Part shown: in pieces, positions 15,671-24,814 of the stretch
Layout: every line of letters starts with the position of its first letter
Position numbering within the stretch: position 1 is the stretch's first letter
DNA from: a virus
Reading direction: 5' to 3' (one strand)
DNA length: 63,387 nucleotides
IMG/VR virus record: IMGVR_UViG_3300037558_002241
Coordinates: 1 to 63,387 of that record
Notes under the pieces: model-generated
Database searches by the model: none
What the model saw: only the letters and a program-made list of their open reading frames with translations
Told to the model about the DNA's origin: nothing
Translations under genes and position numbers: made by a program

Positions 15671-16404
15671 CAGAGCAACCTCAATTTACAGAAATGCAGG
15701 ACTATGGACACATTGGTGTCTTTGAGAACTTTGTCAAGTGGGATTTTTGTGACAGTGTTGTTGACGTATTTGAATACTGGTACAACAAAAAGTATTATGT
15801 TGGTGAAAAATCTGACCATCCTGTAACTACATTGGATGGTAATGAGTTTACCCTAGATCATTTCAATCAAGGCAAGACTCAGTTCCCCAAGGGTGGCATG
15901 GGTCGTAAGGATCACCAGTTGTATCTAGAAATTTGTGATCAAAGTATTACTGCACAGGTCAATCAGTGTATTGGTCAAGCGTTTGAAATTTACGTGCAGA
16001 AATATAAAGGTCTTGTTGATTCTGCTGATCCTATTTCTTCATGGACATGTAAAATCCAACGCACAGATCCTGGTGGTGGATATCATGTATGGCATTGTGA
16101 GAACGGTAACTTCTTGTACCGTGACCGTGTGCTGACGTGGATGATCTATCTGAATGACATCCCCCCTGAGAATGGTGGAGGTACTGACTTCTATCACCAG
16201 GAGAAAACGTTCCATCCTAAGAAAGGAACAATTGTTCTATGGCCTGCTACATATACCCATATGCATCGGGGTGCTTTCTTGACTGGCGAACAGTCTAAGT
16301 ACATTGCTACTGGTTGGTTTATCAGGGAACCTGGTAATGTAACTGAGCGTACTATCAGTCAAGCATTAGGTAATGTTCCCCCTCCACAGGAGAATCTAAA
16401 TTGA
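15667..16404 (+). CDS. 2OG-Fe(II) oxygenase (prolyl-hydroxylase-like)
   Basis: The 245-residue protein contains GGYHVWHCENG, where H143-x-E145 takes the place of the usual HxD, then LTWMIYLNDIPPENGGGTDFYHQE and GTIVLWPATYTHMHRG, with H198 or H200 as distal ligand, and a basic residue at about 211 (QSKYIATGWF). This layout resembles prolyl 4-hydroxylase-like phage proteins. The HxE variant could be active or could change metal chemistry. It is co-translated with GT25 and DUF616 genes. Confidence 0.7.
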   Translation: MTEQPQFTEMQDYGHIGVFENFVKWDFCDSVVDVFEYWYNKKYYVGEKSDHPVTTLDGNEFTLDHFNQGKTQFPKGGMGRKDHQLYLEICDQSITAQVNQCIGQAFEIYVQKYKGLVDSADPISSWTCKIQRTDPGGGYHVWHCENGNFLYRDRVLTWMIYLNDIPPENGGGTDFYHQEKTFHPKKGTIVLWPATYTHMHRGAFLTGEQSKYIATGWFIREPGNVTERTISQALGNVPPPQENLN

Positions 16405-17987
16405 TATTCTATACATGTATCACAAACGACTATGACTGGGTTCCTGATGCATATTATGATTCCAGTTGTAGGTATGTTTGTTTTCATGATGGATCAATTG
16501 AAACTCAGAAAGCACCTTGGGAGTATGTTCTTCTAGAAGAAACTGAAGAGTGCTTCGTAAGAAAATCCTATCACCCTAAACACTTGCCCCATCATTACTT
16601 TGATGAGGGTGAGTTTACGGTATGGATAGACGCTTCCTATCCTATTACAAAAGAGTTTGTAGAGTTCTCTAGAGAGATGGAGGAGTTTGACTTTACGATT
16701 CAGATTCATCCTGATGAAAGAACTTTGTTCGCAGAGTTCAATAAGTTATGCACCTATGGTTTCTCTGAGCATTCTGAGATCCTAGAGATGGCAAAACTCA
16801 TGCACTCTAGAGGATACTGTGGTGAATATTATAAGCAGACTATCAACTGTGTTCTGTGGAGGAGACTGACTCCTGAGGTAATCAAGTGGTGTAATACCTG
16901 GCGTGACTGGTACATGGGTGGTGTGAATAGAGATCAGATCTCTAGTTCTATGGCAGAGTACCTGGTACCTGAGTGTAAGATCAATAGGATTCCCGTACAG
17001 ATAGATTTGAGCAACAGTGGTAGGAAGAAAGAATACATTCAATCATATCCTATTACCAAACCAAAGAACAAAGACATTGTTGATTTGCAGAACAATCTGT
17101 ACCAGATCTTTGGGTTCAAAGATCTCGTAAAGAATATCATCGATAAGACTGTTGATAATATTCCGTACGAGTATGGTGATTCTGTAAAAGATCTGGTTGT
17201 TTTTACTTGCGTCACTAATAACTACGACGAGTTCCCTGAAGACAGTTACTATGATCCTGAAGTTAGGTACGTGTGTTTCCATGATGGAAAGATGGATACC
17301 ACTGTAGGAGCATGGGAATATGTGGAATTGGATTTAGATATAGAAGATCCTAGGGACTTTGCTTTTTATGTAAAGGCAAACCCACATGAGTTCTTTCCTA
17401 AAGGAACCCATACAGTATGGATTGATGGGTGCTTCAAACTTACTGAAGATTTTATCGGAAATAGTAGAATGTCATTTCCATTCTCAGTGTTGAGGCATGG
17501 TAGTAAGTTCTCTTTCCTTGACGAACTCCTAGAAGGATACACCTGTGCTTTCTATTCTAGGAAATGTGTCATGAAGTTTATAGAAAAATTGGGGGAGACT
17601 GATTACAACTTCAAACAATATGCTAGTCCTCAATGCACAATCATTTGGAGAACACTGACTGACGAGCAACGTGAGTTTGATGAGGCATGGTATAAGTGGG
17701 GTAGTGGTAAGTTCAATAGGGATACAATTCCTTTTGACGTTGCTAGACAACTGACTGGTATTGAACCAGAGTTCTATGACAACAGAGAAGATTGTGGTAT
17801 TGAACTTGGGTTCTTCAATAAAGTAGGACGCAGAGGTAAGCATACTCAGAGGGGTAAGTTTGATCAATACCTGACAGCAAATAATTTGCTGAGGAAGTTG
17901 CAACCAATTACTAAACTAAATCCTAGACTGTATGCCAAGTATGATAAGCACGATTTCTATATGAGACACTATGGAATCATCGTTTGA
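16401..17987 (+). CDS. Tandem DUF616 (TOD1/MUCI70-like) glycosyltransferase, two domains
   Basis: The start is TTG overlapping the previous stop. The 528-residue protein holds two DUF616-like domains: residues 1 to about 200 (FYTCITNDYDWVPD, RYVCFHDG, FTVWIDASYPIT, VLWRRLT, WYMGGVNRDQIS) and about 265 to 528 (VFTCVTNNYDEFPED, RYVCFHDG, HTVWIDGCFKLT, TIIWRTLT, GSGKFNRDTIP). The second copy is closer to the genes that follow. DUF616 proteins are putative glycosyltransferases best known from plants (TOD1, MUCI70). Two copies fused in one chain, with two more in the next genes, indicate local tandem duplication. Confidence 0.75.
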   Translation: MIFYTCITNDYDWVPDAYYDSSCRYVCFHDGSIETQKAPWEYVLLEETEECFVRKSYHPKHLPHHYFDEGEFTVWIDASYPITKEFVEFSREMEEFDFTIQIHPDERTLFAEFNKLCTYGFSEHSEILEMAKLMHSRGYCGEYYKQTINCVLWRRLTPEVIKWCNTWRDWYMGGVNRDQISSSMAEYLVPECKINRIPVQIDLSNSGRKKEYIQSYPITKPKNKDIVDLQNNLYQIFGFKDLVKNIIDKTVDNIPYEYGDSVKDLVVFTCVTNNYDEFPEDSYYDPEVRYVCFHDGKMDTTVGAWEYVELDLDIEDPRDFAFYVKANPHEFFPKGTHTVWIDGCFKLTEDFIGNSRMSFPFSVLRHGSKFSFLDELLEGYTCAFYSRKCVMKFIEKLGETDYNFKQYASPQCTIIWRTLTDEQREFDEAWYKWGSGKFNRDTIPFDVARQLTGIEPEFYDNREDCGIELGFFNKVGRRGKHTQRGKFDQYLTANNLLRKLQPITKLNPRLYAKYDKHDFYMRHYGIIV

Positions 17988-18804
17988 GATCTATACGAGT
18001 ATCACTGACGGATATTATCAACTACCTCCTACAAAGCACAGGTCTATCTGCTACCATGATGGCACGGTAGACCCACAAGATGGGTGGGAACTAAGACTGA
18101 TAGATTATTATCACGAGGACCCAGTAAGACTATCCAGATACTCAAAGATACTATGCCCTATCTCTGGACCTAGTGCTTACATAGACGCATCTAAATTACA
18201 CACTGTCAATGATAAGTTTATAGAGGTGAGTGAGAAAGTCTTGAGTAATCATGACTTCTTTTTGATGCAGCACCCACACAAATACTTCTACTTGGAAGAG
18301 TGTGCAGAGCATATACACAGAGGACTGGTTGATTCTGAGACAATCATTGACTTCACCAGCAAAGTTTCTAACTCAGACTATAACTTTGCTAACTTCTTCT
18401 CGCCTCTAGGAACTGTCATCTGGCGTAACGGACCTAGTAGTATTGATAGTCTCTGGTGGGAGTGGTACATGCAAGGTGGTAAGAGAGACCAGTTGTCTCT
18501 TGCAGTGGCATTACAACTTGCTGACGTACCATATGGATGGGCAGAGTCTCGTGAGTTCATCAACAGGTGGTCTGATTCCAACCCTATCGATGGTGCCTGG
18601 TGGAAGAACAAGGGTGGTAGGTATGCAAGAGAAAAGGTAGACCCCACTCCATACATAGATCAACTATGTGCTATAACTGGTCTAAGTAAGCGGGTGCGTT
18701 ACCGAGCATCCATTCTTCGAGAGACTGGTGAGTGGTTGTTCGGAGACATCTCCAAGTATTTCAAACGAAACGATCCTGCCCTGATCAAACTAAGCGGACT
18801 ATGA
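17971..18804 (+). CDS. DUF616-like glycosyltransferase, third copy
   Basis: The 277-residue protein has the same order of blocks as the flanking copies, in degenerate form: IYTSITDGYYQLPP, RSICYHDGTVD, PSAYIDASKLHTVN, GTVIWRNG, WWEWYMQGGKRDQLSLAVALQLA. The VWIDG block has become AYIDASK, so this copy may have changed substrate or lost activity. It overlaps the previous gene by 17 bases and the fourth copy by 4. Confidence 0.7.
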   Translation: MESSFEIYTSITDGYYQLPPTKHRSICYHDGTVDPQDGWELRLIDYYHEDPVRLSRYSKILCPISGPSAYIDASKLHTVNDKFIEVSEKVLSNHDFFLMQHPHKYFYLEECAEHIHRGLVDSETIIDFTSKVSNSDYNFANFFSPLGTVIWRNGPSSIDSLWWEWYMQGGKRDQLSLAVALQLADVPYGWAESREFINRWSDSNPIDGAWWKNKGGRYAREKVDPTPYIDQLCAITGLSKRVRYRASILRETGEWLFGDISKYFKRNDPALIKLSGL

Positions 18805-19682
18805 TTATCTACTCTTGTATTACTAATGGGTATGATGAGATTCCTGATGAGCATTACTACGATCCTGACATCCAGTATGTAATGTTCACTGACGGGACCA
18901 TCGAGAAGAAGGGACCATGGGAGTTCAGAGAGATACCATGTGACCACCCATGTCATCGTAGACGGTCAGCGTTTGTCAAGATCAATCCTCACAAGGTTTT
19001 TCCTAAAGGAGAGCAAACTGTGTGGTTGGATGGATGTTATGTCATGACAGAGAAGTATGCTGAGCAGTGTAAGAAGTATTTTGAGGAGGCACCATTCACT
19101 ATTATGAGGCACTCTGAGAAGTTCTGCTACCTTGAAGAGGTATTGGAGGGGTTCATGGCATCTATGAACACCTGGGACGATCAGATACTCATTACAAAGA
19201 CCATCAAAGAACTGGGATACAACTTCAAACAGTATTGTAGTCCGGTGTTGGCATCCATCTGGAGGACTATGAATGATGAGTATGAGGAGTTTGGTGACCT
19301 GTGGTGGAAGTATTCTTTGATAGGACCTAACCGAGATCAAATTTCCTTTGACACTGCTAGGCAGTTGACTAAGATGGAATTGAATATTATAGAGGACGGG
19401 TGGATTTCTAAGGAGAGGCAACCAAACGGTGCGAATAAGCATGTGCCTGGTAGTTGTGGTATACTTTTCGGATCTCGCGGCAAACAGTATCGACGTAAGC
19501 GTCATCCTCAAGCGGGACACCCCTTGCAACATAAGCAAAGATCTGCTATACTCAAGGAGTTGCGAAATATTACAGGCATGCATCAAATTTATGCCCGGTA
19601 TGATTTCTCAGAGTTTGTGCTGCGTAACGTAGTACAACCCACAATGCCGTTACAAGAGTCTAATTTTTGTAACGATAAATAA
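18801..19682 (+). CDS. DUF616-like glycosyltransferase, fourth copy
   Basis: The ATG at 18801 (ATGA overlap with the third copy) is preferred to an earlier in-frame start because the domain begins exactly there: IIYSCITNGYDEIPDEHYYDP. The 293 residues include QYVMFTDGTIE, KINPHKVFPKGEQTVWLDGCYVMT, LASIWRTMNDE and GPNRDQISFDTARQLT. It is closest to the second domain of the gene at 16401 and looks intact. Its stop codon overlaps a GATAAATA box, so the glycan operon ends here and psbA transcription begins. Confidence 0.75.
   Translation: MIIYSCITNGYDEIPDEHYYDPDIQYVMFTDGTIEKKGPWEFREIPCDHPCHRRRSAFVKINPHKVFPKGEQTVWLDGCYVMTEKYAEQCKKYFEEAPFTIMRHSEKFCYLEEVLEGFMASMNTWDDQILITKTIKELGYNFKQYCSPVLASIWRTMNDEYEEFGDLWWKYSLIGPNRDQISFDTARQLTKMELNIIEDGWISKERQPNGANKHVPGSCGILFGSRGKQYRRKRHPQAGHPLQHKQRSAILKELRNITGMHQIYARYDFSEFVLRNVVQPTMPLQESNFCNDK
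19674..19681 (+). promoter_or_regulatory. Late-type promoter box GATAAATA upstream of psbA
   Basis: GATAAATA overlaps the stop of the last DUF616 gene and lies about 150 bases before the psbA ATG. It matches the T4-like late consensus (NATAAATA). Initiation just downstream would give psbA a leader of about 145 bases containing the three hairpins annotated separately. Confidence 0.5.
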
Positions 19683-19690
19683 CTTTGTAT

Positions 19691-19787
19691 GTGAGGTTTT
19701 CCTCACCACATTGTTCGTCGCCTCACCGAGACTAAACAGCGACAATAAAAAACAGTCTCTAATACCTGTTACTGAGGGTGTAACAGG
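19691..19787 (+). ncRNA. Structured 5' leader of psbA (candidate PhotoRC-II-like RNA)
   Basis: Three inverted repeats lie in the psbA leader. GTGAGG-TTTT-CCTCAC spans 19691-19706. GAGACT (19728-19733) pairs with AGTCTC (19754-19759). CCTGTTAC (19765-19772) pairs perfectly with GTAACAGG (19780-19787) around the loop TGAGGGT. The last hairpin ends 45 bases before the psbA ATG. A conserved RNA called PhotoRC-II is known upstream of psbA in marine cyanophages; whether this is that RNA needs a covariance-model search. It probably tunes psbA translation or mRNA stability. Confidence 0.5.
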
Positions 19788-19832
19788 AATATCTTACCAG
19801 TGTTCCCCGCACTTATATCTAACCCTTTTCAA

Positions 19833-20912
19833 ATGTCCGCTACTCTTTCAAATCAAAGATCTCAATCCGCATGGAATGAGTTCTGTGACTGGGTAACAAG
19901 CACCAACAATCGTCTTTATGTCGGTTGGTTCGGAGTCCTCATGATTCCAACCCTGCTTGCCGCTACAGTCTGTTTCATCGTTGCTTTCGTAGCAGCACCT
20001 CCCGTCGATATCGACGGCATCCGCGAACCAGTTGCTGGTTCACTCATGTATGGAAACAACATCATCTCTGGTGCTGTTGTCCCCAGTTCAAACGCAATCG
20101 GTCTCCACTTCTATCCCATCTGGGAAGCAGCATCACTCGACGAGTGGCTGTATAACGGTGGTCCTTTCCAATTGGTAGTCTTCCACTTCCTGATCGGCAT
20201 CTATGCCTATATGGGACGTGAGTGGGAACTTTCTTACCGCTTAGGTATGCGTCCATGGATCTGTGTTGCCTACTCGGCACCAGTCGCTGCTGCGAGTGCA
20301 GTATTCCTCGTATATCCTTTCGGTCAAGGTTCTTTCTCTGACGCGATGCCCTTGGGTATCAGTGGTACATTCAACTACATGCTTGTCTTCCAAGCAGAGC
20401 ACAACATCTTGATGCACCCCTTCCACATGCTCGGCGTAGCAGGTGTCTTCGGTGGTTCATTGTTCAGTGCAATGCACGGTTCTTTGGTTACATCTTCACT
20501 CGTCCGTGAGACGACTGAGCAAGAGTCACAGAACTATGGTTACAAGTTTGGTCAAGAAGAAGAGACCTATAACATCGTTGCAGCCCATGGCTACTTCGGT
20601 CGTTTGATCTTCCAATACGCTTCATTCAACAACTCCCGTTCCTTGCACTTCTTCCTTGCTGCATGGCCTGTTGTCGGCATCTGGTTCACCGCCCTTGGCG
20701 TGTCCACGATGGCGTTCAACCTGAACGGTTTCAACTTCAACCAGTCCATCCTTGATGGTCAGGGTCGTGTGTTGAACACCTGGGCAGACGTTCTGAACCG
20801 TGCAGGTTTGGGTATGGAAGTAATGCACGAGCGTAATGCTCACAACTTCCCACTCGACCTTGCTGCTGCTGAGTCAACTCCTGTTGCTCTTACCGCACCT
20901 ACCGTTGGTTGA
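19833..20912 (+). CDS. psbA: Photosystem II D1 protein
   Basis: The start is placed at ATG 19833 ([17 protein letters not shown]), giving the normal D1 length of 359 residues. The protein has the five transmembrane helices and the Mn-cluster, QB and chlorophyll-binding blocks ([44 protein letters not shown]). Cleavage after the LDLA alanine would remove the usual C-terminal tail. Residue 130 is Glu ([10 protein letters not shown]), the high-light D1 type. In infected cells phage D1 replaces photodamaged host D1 and keeps photosystem II running. No intron is present. Confidence 0.99.
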
Positions 20913-20986: not shown

Positions 20987-21199
20987 ATGTTCTCAAGATC
21001 TATCATTACTACTGCTCTTGTTGCTGATGCAATGGGCAAAATTGCCAAGGCAAAAGCAAACGTAGAAGTATACCTACACAACCCTGTCGGTATTGGAGAG
21101 CACCCTGATGTGCTTGCTGCTATTCAAGAACAAGTAGATATTATCGCTCATGAAGAAGAACGTATTTCCGTTCTTACTAAACATTTCAACGCAAACTAA
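20987..21199 (+). CDS. Small conserved-looking protein between psbA and psbD, 70 aa
   Basis: The 70-residue protein (MFSRSIITTALVADAMGKIA...) has a mildly hydrophobic N-terminus, then an amphipathic Glu/His/Ala-rich region likely to be helical. There are no cysteines or known motifs. It follows the psbA terminator directly and precedes psbD by 18 bases, so it is probably co-transcribed with psbD. Its position suggests a photosynthesis-related role, but this is not shown by the sequence. Confidence 0.6.
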   Translation: MFSRSIITTALVADAMGKIAKAKANVEVYLHNPVGIGEHPDVLAAIQEQVDIIAHEEERISVLTKHFNAN

Positions 21200-21217
21200 T
21201 TTTTATCGTATCAAATC

Positions 21218-22273
21218 ATGGTAGCATCAACACTAACTAAACCCACAAGGGGTTGGTTTGATGTCCTAGATGACTGGTTGAAGCGAGACAGATTTGTCTT
21301 CATCGGTTGGTCTGGACTACTTCTCCTTCCCACTGCCTACATGGCAATTGGTGGTTGGCTTACAGGAACCACCTTCGCTACCTCCTGGTATACTCACGGC
21401 ATTGCCTCATCTTACCTGGAAGGTTGCAACTTCCTCACCGCTGCTGTTTCGACCCCCGCTGACGCGATGGGTCATAGTCTTCTTCTCCTATGGGGACCAG
21501 AAGCACAGGGTGATTTTGTCCGCTGGGTACAACTCGGTGGTCTCTGGGCATTCGTTGCCCTGCATGGTGCATTCGCACTCATCGGATTCATGCTCCGACA
21601 ATTTGAAATCGCACGTCTAGTCGGGATCAGACCCTACAATGCTATTGCGTTCTCTGGTCCTATTGCTGTTTTTGTCAGCGTATTCCTTATCTATCCACTG
21701 GGTCAGTCTTCATGGTTCTTTGCACCTAGTTTCGGGGTAGCAGCAATCTTTAGATTCCTGTTGTTCCTTCAGGGTTTCCACAACTGGACCCTCAACCCAT
21801 TCCACATGATGGGTGTTGCAGGTATCCTTGGCGGTGCTTTGCTCTGTGCAATTCATGGTGCTACAGTGGAGAACACACTGTTTGAAGATGGTGAACAGGC
21901 AAACACCTTCAAAGCATTTGAACCTACACAGGAAGAGGAAACTTACTCAATGGTTACGGCGAACCGTTTCTGGTCTCAGATTTTCGGTATTGCCTTTAGT
22001 AACAAGCGGTGGCTTCATTTCTTTATGCTTTTTGTTCCTGTCATGGGTCTCTGGACATCTAGCATTGGGATTATTGGTCTTGCTCTCAATCTTCGTGCTT
22101 ATGATTTCGTAAGTCAAGAGATCAGAGCAGCAGAAGACCCTGAGTTCGAGACGTTCTACACTAAGAACATCCTTCTCAACGAAGGACTCCGTGCGTGGAT
22201 GGCACCAGTCGATCAACCACATGAGTCATTCGTATTCCCAGAAGAAGTTCTACCTAGAGGCAACGCATTGTGA
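21218..22273 (+). CDS. psbD: Photosystem II D2 protein
   Basis: The 351-residue protein is full-length D2: [84 protein letters not shown], and the C-terminal [16 protein letters not shown]. The histidine ligands of P680 and the non-heme iron lie in the [11 protein letters not shown] and RWLHFFM helices. It pairs with D1 in the reaction centre, so the phage supplies both turnover-prone subunits. The next gene starts in its stop codon (GTGA). Confidence 0.99.
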
Positions 22274-22662
22274 TTCAGTCTCTAGGATTCTTACTACTTC
22301 GTATAGCGATAGGTACTATGCTTATCCATCATGGATATGAGAAACTAGAGAACATTGAAAACTTTGCGGATGCATTTGTACGACCACTGCATCTTCCATT
22401 CCCAATCGTCTCCTCATACTTCGCAGCATTCTCTGAGATTGTGGGGAGTTGGTTGGTTATATTTGGACTCGGCACTCGTCTGGGTGCCTTGGCAATCCTA
22501 GGTACAATATCATTTGCAATTTATCATGCTCTAGTTACATCTGGATTCAATATCTATCTTCTAGAATTGCTTATATTATATTGGGGAGGTGCAGCATGTA
22601 TCGTTCTCAATGGTGGGGGTAATTTCTCACTAGATCACCTCATAAAACGACAACTCACATGA
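22270..22662 (+). CDS. DoxX-family membrane protein
   Basis: The GTG start overlaps the psbD stop. The 130-residue protein has about four transmembrane segments and the DoxX pattern: [25 protein letters not shown], a middle [32 protein letters not shown], and a hydrophobic C-terminal part. DoxX proteins are small inner-membrane proteins linked to quinone or redox functions. In the psbD operon it could act in thylakoid electron transfer or membrane redox balance; the exact reaction is unknown. Confidence 0.75.
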
Positions 22663-22910
22663 ATATCTTCAAAGGACTATTCACTTTTATGTTCGCTGCT
22701 CTGATGTGGGTACAAGTCCCACAGTGGAGTGATGATTGGTCTAAGTGTGCCGTAGATGTACCAGACACAGCATGTCATTGGTATATCGTTGCACCCGATA
22801 GCACCATGGGTGAAGGATTTAGTTGGGCAAATGCCCCCTGGTTCAGTGTCGAAGGTCTCCGAGACATTGGGGAACTTCATAACACACTTCAATCTCTTCA
22901 GGAAGCATGA
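22659..22910 (+). CDS. Small exported or membrane protein, 83 aa
   Basis: The N-terminus [23 protein letters not shown] is a hydrophobic segment that could be a signal peptide or anchor. The remaining 60 residues are Trp- and Asp-rich with two cysteines (CAVDVPDTAC) that could form a disulfide on the lumen or periplasm side. The family is unknown to me. It overlaps the DoxX gene and the next gene by 4 bases each, so the three are translated together. Confidence 0.6.
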   Translation: MNIFKGLFTFMFAALMWVQVPQWSDDWSKCAVDVPDTACHWYIVAPDSTMGEGFSWANAPWFSVEGLRDIGELHNTLQSLQEA

Positions 22911-23122
22911 ATAACTTTGAAGTCTTTCTTTATTTTGTATGCTTTGCTGCTATTGGTGGTGCTGCCTTTGCTATGATGTGGAGTAACATTCAATCTATCA
23001 ATATAGAGATGAGGAATCCTCCTAAACGAAAGCATCCTGAAGCACCTGAAGCAGGTGAAGAGGTGATGTATGTAGATCTCTCTAGACAAAAACTAGAAGA
23101 TCTTTACAATAAGAATGAATAG
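22907..23122 (+). CDS. Single-pass membrane protein, 71 aa
   Basis: Residues 6-25 (VFLYFVCFAAIGGAAFAMMW) form one transmembrane helix, followed by a charged, Pro- and Glu-rich tail (NPPKRKHPEAPEAGEE) that would lie in the cytoplasm. No motif is known. It is the last gene of the psbD-DoxX unit and is followed by an intrinsic terminator. Confidence 0.6.
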   Translation: MNNFEVFLYFVCFAAIGGAAFAMMWSNIQSINIEMRNPPKRKHPEAPEAGEEVMYVDLSRQKLEDLYNKNE

Positions 23123-23133
23123 TGCTATACTAA

Positions 23134-23156
23134 GGGGGTCTCGAACCCTCTTTTTT
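23134..23156 (+). terminator. Intrinsic terminator after the psbD operon
   Basis: GGGGGT pairs with ACCCTC (one G-U pair) around the loop CTCGA, and TTTTTT follows at once. It lies 12 bases after the stop of the 71-residue membrane protein gene. Confidence 0.75.
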
Positions 23157-23160
23157 ATGA

Positions 23161-23367
23161 ATGCAAACACTAGTAATACATCTGGTAGCGTTCTTCAATG
23201 TAGTTGTAATGAACTGCATTCATCCTGCTAATTGGCAATACTGTTACCGGGTTGATGAATGGTTAGTTCCTGAGGTTATAGAAGGTTATAAACTCTGGAC
23301 AGGTGAGACACACCCCTATCAAAATGAAAAGAACTTCCTAAATAATGACATATCGTCGCCGCGTTAG
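23161..23367 (+). CDS. Small exported hypothetical protein, 68 aa
   Basis: The frame starts right after a terminator and has no clear ribosome binding site, which lowers confidence in the start. The N-terminal 20 residues (MQTLVIHLVAFFNVVVMNCI) are hydrophobic and could be a signal peptide. The rest contains Trp and Tyr (HPANWQYCYRVDEWLVPE). It is closed by a second terminator. No family recognised. Confidence 0.4.
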   Translation: MQTLVIHLVAFFNVVVMNCIHPANWQYCYRVDEWLVPEVIEGYKLWTGETHPYQNEKNFLNNDISSPR

Positions 23368-23405
23368 GGGATCCTGGCAAAATCCAGGACACCCCTACTT
23401 TTTTT
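23368..23405 (+). terminator. Intrinsic terminator before petE
   Basis: CCTGG pairs with CCAGG inside a larger stem flanked by GGGG and CCCC, around the loop CAAAAT. TACTTTTTTT follows. It isolates petE from the upstream gene. Confidence 0.75.
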
Positions 23406-23410
23406 GTCTA

Positions 23411-23416
23411 TATAAT
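23411..23416 (+). promoter_or_regulatory. -10 box TATAAT upstream of petE
   Basis: A consensus TATAAT lies 24 bases before the petE ATG, directly after a terminator. No good -35 hexamer is visible, as in many phage promoters that depend on helper factors. Confidence 0.5.
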
Positions 23417-23439
23417 GGGATTGCGAATCACTTCACTCA

Positions 23440-23763
23440 ATGAAGCCTTTATTTGTCCTAATCGCTTCACTGTTCCTTGCTTTACCTGCATGGGCAGTGG
23501 ATGTAACGATGGGTGCCGGTGGCAACCTAGTATTTGAACCTAATGAGATCTCAATCTCAGCAGGTGACACAGTTCATTTTATCAATCAAGCATTACCTCC
23601 TCACAATATTATTGTAGAAGGTCGTGTAGATCTTTCCAGAGAAGCATTGTTGTTTGCTCCTGGAGAAACCCAAGACGTTGTATTTGCTGACGCAGGAGAC
23701 TACACTTTCTTCTGTGGTCCTCATCAAGGAGCAGGTATGACTGGCACTATTCACGTTCAATAA
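23440..23763 (+). CDS. petE: Plastocyanin
   Basis: The 107-residue precursor has a signal peptide ending ALPAWA (residues 14-19), so it is exported to the thylakoid lumen or periplasm. The mature cupredoxin keeps all type I copper ligands: H55 in LPPHNII, and C92, H95 and M100 in FFCGPHQGAGMTG. It carries electrons from cytochrome b6f to photosystem I or an oxidase. It has its own TATAAT box and lies 6 bases before ferredoxin, so the two electron carriers form one unit. Confidence 0.95.
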   Translation: MKPLFVLIASLFLALPAWAVDVTMGAGGNLVFEPNEISISAGDTVHFINQALPPHNIIVEGRVDLSREALLFAPGETQDVVFADAGDYTFFCGPHQGAGMTGTIHVQ

Positions 23764-23769
23764 ATCTCC

Positions 23770-24060
23770 ATGTTCACAGTTACAATCCGCACTCCCGAAG
23801 GCGTAGAAACTTCCTTCGAGTCTCCTGAAGATCAGTACATCCTAGATGGTGCTGATGAAGCAGGCATTGATCTAAACTATTCTTGTCGTGCAGGTGCCTG
23901 TTCATCTTGTGCCGGTAAGATTGTAGAAGGTACGGTAAATCAAGAGGATCAATCATTTTTAGATGATGATCAAATTGAAGCGGGATTTGTTCTCACTTGT
24001 GTGGCTTATCCCACCTCTGACTGTACTATTCTTTGTGATCAAGAAGAGTCTCTATACTAA
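23770..24060 (+). CDS. petF: [2Fe-2S] ferredoxin, plant type
   Basis: The 96-residue protein has the plant-type ferredoxin fold with cysteines C39, C44, C47 and C77 (CRAGACSSC and [11 protein letters not shown]). It accepts electrons from photosystem I and can feed reductases. In this phage it could also support the RfbH dehydrase or radical SAM enzymes, which need low-potential electrons; that link is inference. Confidence 0.95.
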
Positions 24061-24090
24061 ATATAAATGATGTAGTATAGTGTATGTGTA

Positions 24091-24363
24091 ATGTCTCTTT
24101 CAAGGAAATTATCACTTTCTGATACTTCAACCGCACTGAAAGAAACCGAACAACAATTAGACAGCGAAGGGACTACCGACCTCGTTGCTCCGGAGAATCC
24201 TTCTCCTGTTTGGCGTTTTCGTGAGCGTTGTTGGAAACGTTTATCCTCAAGTGAGCATGCAACGGCAGTCAATTACTGGCGTAATCAAGAACTTGCAAAG
24301 AAGGTAGTGTTGATGGAAGTTGCAGAACTAGAAAAGAAAAAAGCAAAGACTGGATCTTATTGA
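24091..24363 (+). CDS. Hypothetical protein, 90 aa
   Basis: The 90-residue protein is hydrophilic. The first half is Ser/Thr- and Glu-rich, then a Trp-containing segment (PVWRFRERCWKRLSSS) is followed by a Lys/Glu-rich helix (ELAKKVVLMEVAELEKKKAK). No family is recognised. Upstream, ATATAAAT (24061) resembles a late box and TATAGT (24076) a weak -10. It ends where the next promoter begins. Confidence 0.5.
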   Translation: MSLSRKLSLSDTSTALKETEQQLDSEGTTDLVAPENPSPVWRFRERCWKRLSSSEHATAVNYWRNQELAKKVVLMEVAELEKKKAKTGSY

Positions 24364-24388
24364 CTACGTATCAATAAGATGATATAAT
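24360..24388 (+). promoter_or_regulatory. Sigma70-like promoter TTGACT-N17-TATAAT
   Basis: TTGACT at 24360-24365 and TATAAT at 24383-24388 are spaced by 17 bases, an almost ideal host-type promoter. The start of the downstream gene lies 20 bases after the -10 box. It would drive the gene at 24409, glutaredoxin and following genes early in infection. Confidence 0.75.
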
Positions 24389-24408
24389 ACCTGAGTAACC
24401 TCTTCATT

Positions 24409-24606
24409 ATGAAAAAGTCTGCTCGCCACCAAGTAAAATCTAAATGGTATTATATTTTCTGGGGTATTGCAACAGTATCGGTGGTGACAGGACAAATCTA
24501 TGTTGGAACTGGTTTTCGACAGATGGCATCTTCCGTACAGGAAGGTGCTAATTTATTTTCTGATTACATAAAGACCTATGAAGGCAGTAGTTTACTCACG
24601 CGATAA
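24409..24606 (+). CDS. Single-pass membrane protein, 65 aa
   Basis: MKKSARHQVKSKWYYIFWGIATVSVVTGQIYVGTGF shows a basic N-terminus followed by one transmembrane helix at about 13-32. The tail (SVQEGANLFSDYIKTY) is polar. It resembles the TM protein at 35326 in its sequence around the helix (GQIYVGTGFRQMASS versus GQFYLGSAINSMSRS), so the two may be related. Its end overlaps glutaredoxin by 29 bases. The function is unknown. Confidence 0.6.
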   Translation: MKKSARHQVKSKWYYIFWGIATVSVVTGQIYVGTGFRQMASSVQEGANLFSDYIKTYEGSSLLTR

Positions 24607-24814
24607 TTGTCAATGGTGTGATAGAGTTAGACAACTCTTTGCATCTGTTGACCTCGATTATATCGAGTATAAACTAGGTAAAGATTTTACTCAAGAACAA
24701 TTCCTTATGGAGTTTGAGGAGGCAGCAACGTTTCCTCAAGTGTCTATCAACAACAAAGCAATAGGTGGATGCAAAGAAACTCTAAAGTTCCTCCAGGAAC
24801 AAAAGATGATTTGA
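24578..24814 (+). CDS. nrdC: Glutaredoxin
   Basis: The 78-residue protein has the active site C11-Q-W-C14, the conserved FPQVSINNKAIGGCKET region (cis-Pro and GG loop) and the normal length of a monothiol/dithiol glutaredoxin. It reduces disulfides and probably serves phage ribonucleotide reductase, as T4 NrdC does. The ATG lies inside the upstream membrane-protein gene. Confidence 0.9.
   Translation: MKAVVYSRDNCQWCDRVRQLFASVDLDYIEYKLGKDFTQEQFLMEFEEAATFPQVSINNKAIGGCKETLKFLQEQKMI

Follow-up and report, generated by a model that had tools for sequence, protein, structure and literature searches.

The psbA leader of the cyanophage studied here carries PhotoRC-II, a conserved, psbA-linked and phage-specific RNA structure that has a pseudoknotted core and immediately precedes the region expected to be covered by ribosomes at a start codon without an SD sequence. 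To the Rfam consensus of this family (RF01717), which as printed consists of two hairpins only, our analysis adds a pseudoknot, a third hairpin (P3) and a 5'-terminal hairpin (P0), all present in this leader, as well as a minimal form of the element without P2 and P3. We assign a probability of about 0.45 to the reading that PhotoRC-II is a phage-specific, cis-acting leader that sets the stability and translation of late psbA mRNA, a function predicted from comparative sequence analysis; cis-regulation of psbA, or of D1 synthesis, is a putative role of the family.

Layout of the psbA leader

The window, that is, the whole 63,387-base virus record analyzed here, is a fragment of a T4-like cyanophage genome whose nearest named relatives are Synechococcus phages. 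Its psbA gene (19833-20912; psbA and all leader features below are on the plus strand) is free of introns and encodes a D1 protein of 359 aa (Pfam PF00124, Photo_RC; E = 3.9e-89). A preliminary description of the locus had placed the hairpins between a late box and the psbA ATG, and a T4-like late promoter box, GATAAATA, is indeed found at 19674-19681, where it and the stop codon of the preceding gene overlap. Assuming the spacing of T4 late promoters, the psbA transcript presumably starts at about 19687, which gives a leader of ~145 nt; the impression that this leader is much longer than others is borne out by the 150-nt gap between 19682 and 19833, the longest between neighboring genes of the region.

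The leader begins with P0, a hairpin of the form GTGAGG-TTTT-CCTCAC (19691-19706), followed by the P1 stem, in which GUCGC (19717-19721) pairs with GCGAC (19739-19743), as in the Rfam structure line and as recovered in relatives. The P1 loop contains an invariant ACC and the 5' strand of the pseudoknot, GAGACU (19728-19733), the 3' strand of which, AGUCUC, lies at 19754-19759; both strands were assigned from their covariation. Farther downstream are P2, a perfect 8-bp hairpin with RAGGG conserved in the loop (CCTGTTAC-TGAGGGT-GTAACAGG; 19765-19787), and P3, AGUG(U)-UCCCC-(G)CACU (19799-19813), which ends 19 nt before the AUG. P2 corresponds to the second stem of the Rfam model, and P0 and P3 are beyond it. 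The preliminary description listed P0, P2 and P3, and all three are present, but it omitted P1 (GUCGC/GCGAC) and the pseudoknot formed with its loop.

Folding of the single sequence yielded -32 kcal/mol (z = -1.43), with 18 of 200 shuffled sequences being equally stable, which is not significant. The case for structure beyond chance is made by the Rfam match and by covariation among relatives rather than by single-sequence folding.

Upstream of the leader, 16401-19682 is taken up by three consecutive genes, for a double-domain protein of 528 aa and two proteins of ~280-300 aa. They seem to be tandem paralogues sharing a glycosyltransferase-like domain, with a match to Pfam TOD1_MUCI70 in the first and to PHROG 26101, a glycosyltransferase, in the last. 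Downstream of psbA lies a photosynthesis and redox cassette (20987-24814) encoding a 70-aa protein (phrog_1811), psbD, DoxX, plastocyanin, ferredoxin and glutaredoxin.

The leader belongs to the PhotoRC-II family

Running the PhotoRC-II covariance model, as the earlier guess at a PhotoRC-II RNA invited, produced a match at 19704-19800 (cmscan, 58 bits, gathering cutoff 39, E = 2.9e-07 over the window) that covers the model over its whole length (positions 1-96) and ends 33 nt upstream of the psbA ATG. Alignment to the consensus and to relatives located both stems with their conserved loop motifs, ACCGAGAC and GAGGGU. Weinberg et al. (2010; PMC2864571), working from marine samples and one cyanophage, considered PhotoRC-II probably associated with psbA; it has since been annotated in several phages without a functional test (PMC9602691). 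Like the published family, the window leader is located upstream of a cyanophage psbA, and it is a member of this known, cyanophage-specific family, the structure of which is refined here. The model of PhotoRC-I (RF01716), which also occurs in a psbA leader, at psbA of host Synechococcus WH7803, but is host-encoded, 44 nt long and different in sequence, had no match in the window, and other Rfam families gave only sub-threshold chance matches on the leader.

Relatives were collected by extracting psbA loci from viral contigs with protein and DNA patterns, resulting in 289 distinct leaders. From 57 leaders we built a covariance model (R1) in which P2 was the sole annotated helix; a run over all loci identified ~170 leaders with the element. 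Compensating changes in these other cyanophage psbA leaders, the absence of which would have spoken against a conserved RNA, turned out to be abundant. In P2, 89.9% of the cells are paired, with 154 double-change cells compared with 49.7 after shuffling.

A predicted pseudoknot in the core of PhotoRC-II

In the window leader, GAGAC in the P1 loop (19728-19732) is complementary to the downstream GUCUC (19755-19759); a sixth pair (U-A) is possible, and freeing both strands for this interaction costs just 0.5 kcal/mol of nested structure. Our first count of this pairing used leaders pre-filtered for it and thus suffered from selection bias (31 double-change cells versus 6.1 shuffled in this pre-filtered set). 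The recount was performed on hits of R1, in which both strands are unpaired, albeit with a seed alignment drawn from the filtered set. Of the 173 hits without gaps at the ten positions, 169 form all five pairs, whereas shuffling the 3' strands left 112 fully paired on average and 125 at most; two of the remaining four are weak false hits, and the other two are leaders that form four of the five pairs. The fully paired hits use about ten pair combinations, the commonest being GAGAC/GUCUC (99), AAGAC/GUCUU (35), GAGAU/AUCUC (15) and AGGAC/GUCCU (8), followed by GAGGC/GCCUC (3) and by GGGAC/GUCCC, GGGGC/GCCCC and GGGAC/GUCUC (2 each); GGGAU/AUCCC, GAGAC/GUCUU and GAGAU/GUCUC, the last in a decayed second copy, occur once.

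In an unguided alignment of the pre-filtered leaders, 98.9% of the pseudoknot cells are paired, as opposed to at most 71% when the strands are slid by one to three columns. Mapped onto a psbA tree, the 5' strand shows ~40 changes and the 3' strand ~38, with each pair position changing in step, these counts being inexact because psbA and its leader may recombine. The topology is that of an H-type pseudoknot, with a P1 mostly of 5-8 bp, a loop 1 ending in ACC, a loop 2 of 2-6 nt and an A-rich loop 3 mostly of 5-10 nt. The lengths of P1 and loop 3, expected to track each other if loop 3 spans P1, are uncorrelated (rho = 0.03). Covariation thus shows, at the level of comparative prediction, an H-type pseudoknot fold for the PhotoRC-II core, in which bases of the P1 loop pair with a strand 3' of the stem and both sides change compensatorily.

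This helix is absent from the consensus structure printed by Rfam. RF01717 is among the families reported to have covarying pairs missing from the database structure, the pairs being unnamed in the main text of that study (PMC7657543). Since the pseudoknot may already be among these extra pairs in its supplement, we claim no priority for it. At one locus (L039, 1415-1452), P2 and P3 are normal and the match is confined to model positions 41-78, the P1/pseudoknot part having diverged; the pseudoknot has possibly been replaced or lost there.

Hairpins beyond the Rfam model and minimal leaders

P3 is present in all 151 distinct leaders that were parsed with P2, typically 10-14 nt 3' of it and nearly always with a C-rich loop. 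Its stem is paired in 79% of the cells, with 122 double-change cells versus 49 shuffled (unguided MAFFT columns), and its distance to the AUG is narrowly distributed, with a median of 21 nt and a 5-95% range of 19-25. At the 5' end, the late box ATAAATA precedes the pseudoknot in 114 of 166 PhotoRC-II leaders, compared with 5% in shuffled sequence, and perfect stems of at least 6 bp between the late box and P1, resembling P0 in position but differing in sequence, occur in 25% of leaders versus 5% after shuffling. A set of minimal leaders (among them L265, L267, L297, L303 and that of the cultured phage S-SSM7) keeps P1 and the pseudoknot and lacks both P2 and P3, so that these leaders consist of the pseudoknot and a short unstructured run to the AUG; 2 of 13 minimal leaders tested reach the Rfam cutoff.

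Distribution of PhotoRC-II

PhotoRC-II is present in one copy per genome in all 12 complete named phage genomes, including Syn9, and in a single copy in nearly all of 40 metagenomic records with a match, and in all cases in which the flank was read the copy lies at psbA. The 400 genomes of the host family that were searched contain no genuine copy, and a host origin was rejected, as PhotoRC-II is missing from host psbA loci and host genomes. Both strong host-side hits carry a phage-type psbA with PhotoRC-II, one (L414, NHGE01000071.1) in a MAG labelled Euryarchaeota TMED129 and the other (L495) in a picocyanobacterial genome, and are most likely misbinned phage contigs; three weak hits of ~30 bits lie away from psbA.

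PhotoRC-II is absent from the podovirus P-SSP7, in which psbA directly follows an hli gene, and from S-PM2. The psbA 5' UTR of the latter, likewise a T4-like cyanophage, resembles the window leader in that its late box is followed by a hairpin at the 5' end, a counterpart of P0 that was reported to be a 36-bp inverted repeat (PMC5931967); unlike the window leader, it possesses just this long P0-like hairpin, is devoid of P1/pseudoknot, P2 and P3, and is accompanied by a psbA intron and the antisense RNA CfrI.

Two loci have a second, partly decayed copy (L222, 4322-4399; L365, 18-91) upstream of a gene for a 388-aa fibre-like protein. This gene is served by a late box of its own, located after the second copy, in which P2 and P3 are decayed, and the arrangement looks like the scar of an insertion into the psbA leader. 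We also considered PhotoRC-II as a general leader of late genes and rejected this possibility, given the fibre-like gene's own late box, the decay of P2 and P3, and the single copy in complete genomes.

Some annotations at these loci deserve mention. In S-SM2 (L492, GU071095), psbA is annotated from 179871, whereas protein similarity begins at 179703, and part of the leader is overlain by SSM2_251, a hypothetical gene annotated on the opposite strand. In S-SSM7 (L503, GU071098), the annotated psbA start (215141) precedes the PhotoRC-II leader (215161-215222) and the reading frame runs through it; hence, the annotated D1 appears to be too long at its N terminus. At two further loci (L162 and L166), the alignment of psbA to D1 is broken into separate pieces, as would be expected of genes with introns.

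Loop complementarity and the translation start

The P2 loop is nearly always RAGGG-like, and P3 loops carry CCCU, CCCC or CCUC, such that at least four Watson-Crick pairs are possible between the two loops in 111 of 141 leaders. The remaining leaders have an ACCC-type motif beside the AUG, except for one that has neither; thus, 140 of the 141 keep a partner for the P2 loop, either in the P3 loop or near the AUG (Fisher p = 8e-14, uncorrected for relatedness). The window leader is of the kind with a motif beside the AUG: ACCCUU (19822-19827) could form 6 bp with the P2 loop at a predicted -8.7 kcal/mol, whereas pairing of the P2 and P3 loops of this leader is predicted at -4.9. In a permutation test, however, matched P2 and P3 loops paired no better than permuted ones, so covariation between the loops was rejected; what is left is conserved complementarity, which makes the pairing only suggestive.

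None of 155 element-bearing leaders has an SD-like 4-mer (AGGA, GGAG, GAGG or AAGG) at -20 to -5, the corresponding numbers being 15 of 205 for psbA leaders in which no element was parsed and 9 of 58 for the longer ORFs of the window. Such a 4-mer does occur inside the P2 loop in 144 of the 155. The P2 loop might accordingly be imagined as a displaced SD, ~55 nt upstream, that is held by the anti-SD-like, C-rich segment of the P3 loop or the AUG side, with the pseudoknot or infection conditions gating its use by ribosomes, a scheme that we regard as improbable.

Proposed function and alternative explanations

In the reading we prefer, P0 and the compact pseudoknot would protect the late psbA transcript against nucleases, and ribosome access would be tuned by the P2 loop through pairing with either the C-rich loop of P3 or ACCCUU on the AUG side, the latter probably being favored in the window phage. 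The leader would thereby set the amount of phage D1 made late in infection, independently of the control of host psbA. A single translational outcome shared by all leaders is not obvious, because pairing with CCCU in the P3 loop would leave the AUG open and pairing with ACCCUU would cover it. S-PM2 is the one cyanophage for which we found a psbA light response to have been measured, and its psbA mRNA rises in high light (PMC5931967); as S-PM2 lacks PhotoRC-II, the element is not needed for that response in this phage.

The alternatives rank in the order of a protein operator, pure stabilization and a riboswitch. The leader of T4 gene 32 contains an H-type pseudoknot, and gp32 acts on this leader of its own message. 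By analogy, an RNA-binding protein of phage or host origin could be nucleated on the PhotoRC-II pseudoknot, then cover the A/U-rich bases that precede the AUG, and thereby repress or stabilize the message. The placement of an H-type pseudoknot 5' of an unstructured, SD-less stretch, the reduction of minimal leaders to little else, and the invariant ACC beside the pseudoknot are all consistent with such an operator, and the T4-like parentage of both leaders adds to the likeness. The gene and the sequence are different, however, and binding of gp32 here is purely an analogy. Moreover, no candidate protein was found, and the 12 complete phages have no additional copy at gene 32 or any other gene, which argues against a shared operator and means that the same pseudoknot does not recur at a regulator's own gene as gp32-type autoregulation would entail. 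Overall, we consider a protein operator rather unlikely.

The same elements could act on mRNA decay only, with P0 and the pseudoknot blocking 5'-end-dependent decay or entry of RNase E and with no role in translation. The position of P0 at the likely 5' end is in line with this explanation, as are the destruction of host psbA2 mRNA in the dark via AU-box RNase E sites and the rise of host RNase E during P-SSP7 infection (PMC10989914); stability control by a 5' hairpin was also proposed for S-PM2 by the authors of that work (PMC5931967). Pure stabilization leaves unexplained why P2 and P3 are gained and lost jointly, with their complementary loops, why the spacing from P3 to the AUG is fixed, and why SD motifs are depleted, and it appears unlikely as the whole explanation.

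An H-type pseudoknot in which loop bases are conserved, as in PhotoRC-II, is a frequent design among riboswitches. Other families of riboswitch occur in cyanophages, the glutamine riboswitch among them (PMC9964418). A small-molecule or ion riboswitch built on the pseudoknot is nevertheless improbable, given that the element is tied to a single gene type, that no terminator or expression-platform switch was seen in the leader, and that PhotoRC-II is marked "n" in the last yes/no column of the table of Weinberg et al., which we read as referring to riboswitches (PMC2864571). Finally, conservation as DNA, be it promoter-proximal repeats or homology for swapping psbA cassettes by recombination, might be suggested by the mosaic leaders and by the second copies flanking the inserted fibre-like gene, but is contradicted by the covariation of the loop with its downstream strand, because recombination would keep sequence and not pairing, and has a very slim chance of being correct.

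Implications for phage psbA expression

Phage psbA is among the best known genes that ocean viruses carry from their hosts. Results on the light response of S-PM2 should not be extended uncritically to the many phages with PhotoRC-II. The pseudoknot specifies the exact bases to mutate (GAGAC/GUCUC swaps), S-SSM7 offers a minimal natural version and S-PM2 a natural null, so that the role of PhotoRC-II becomes testable in culture.
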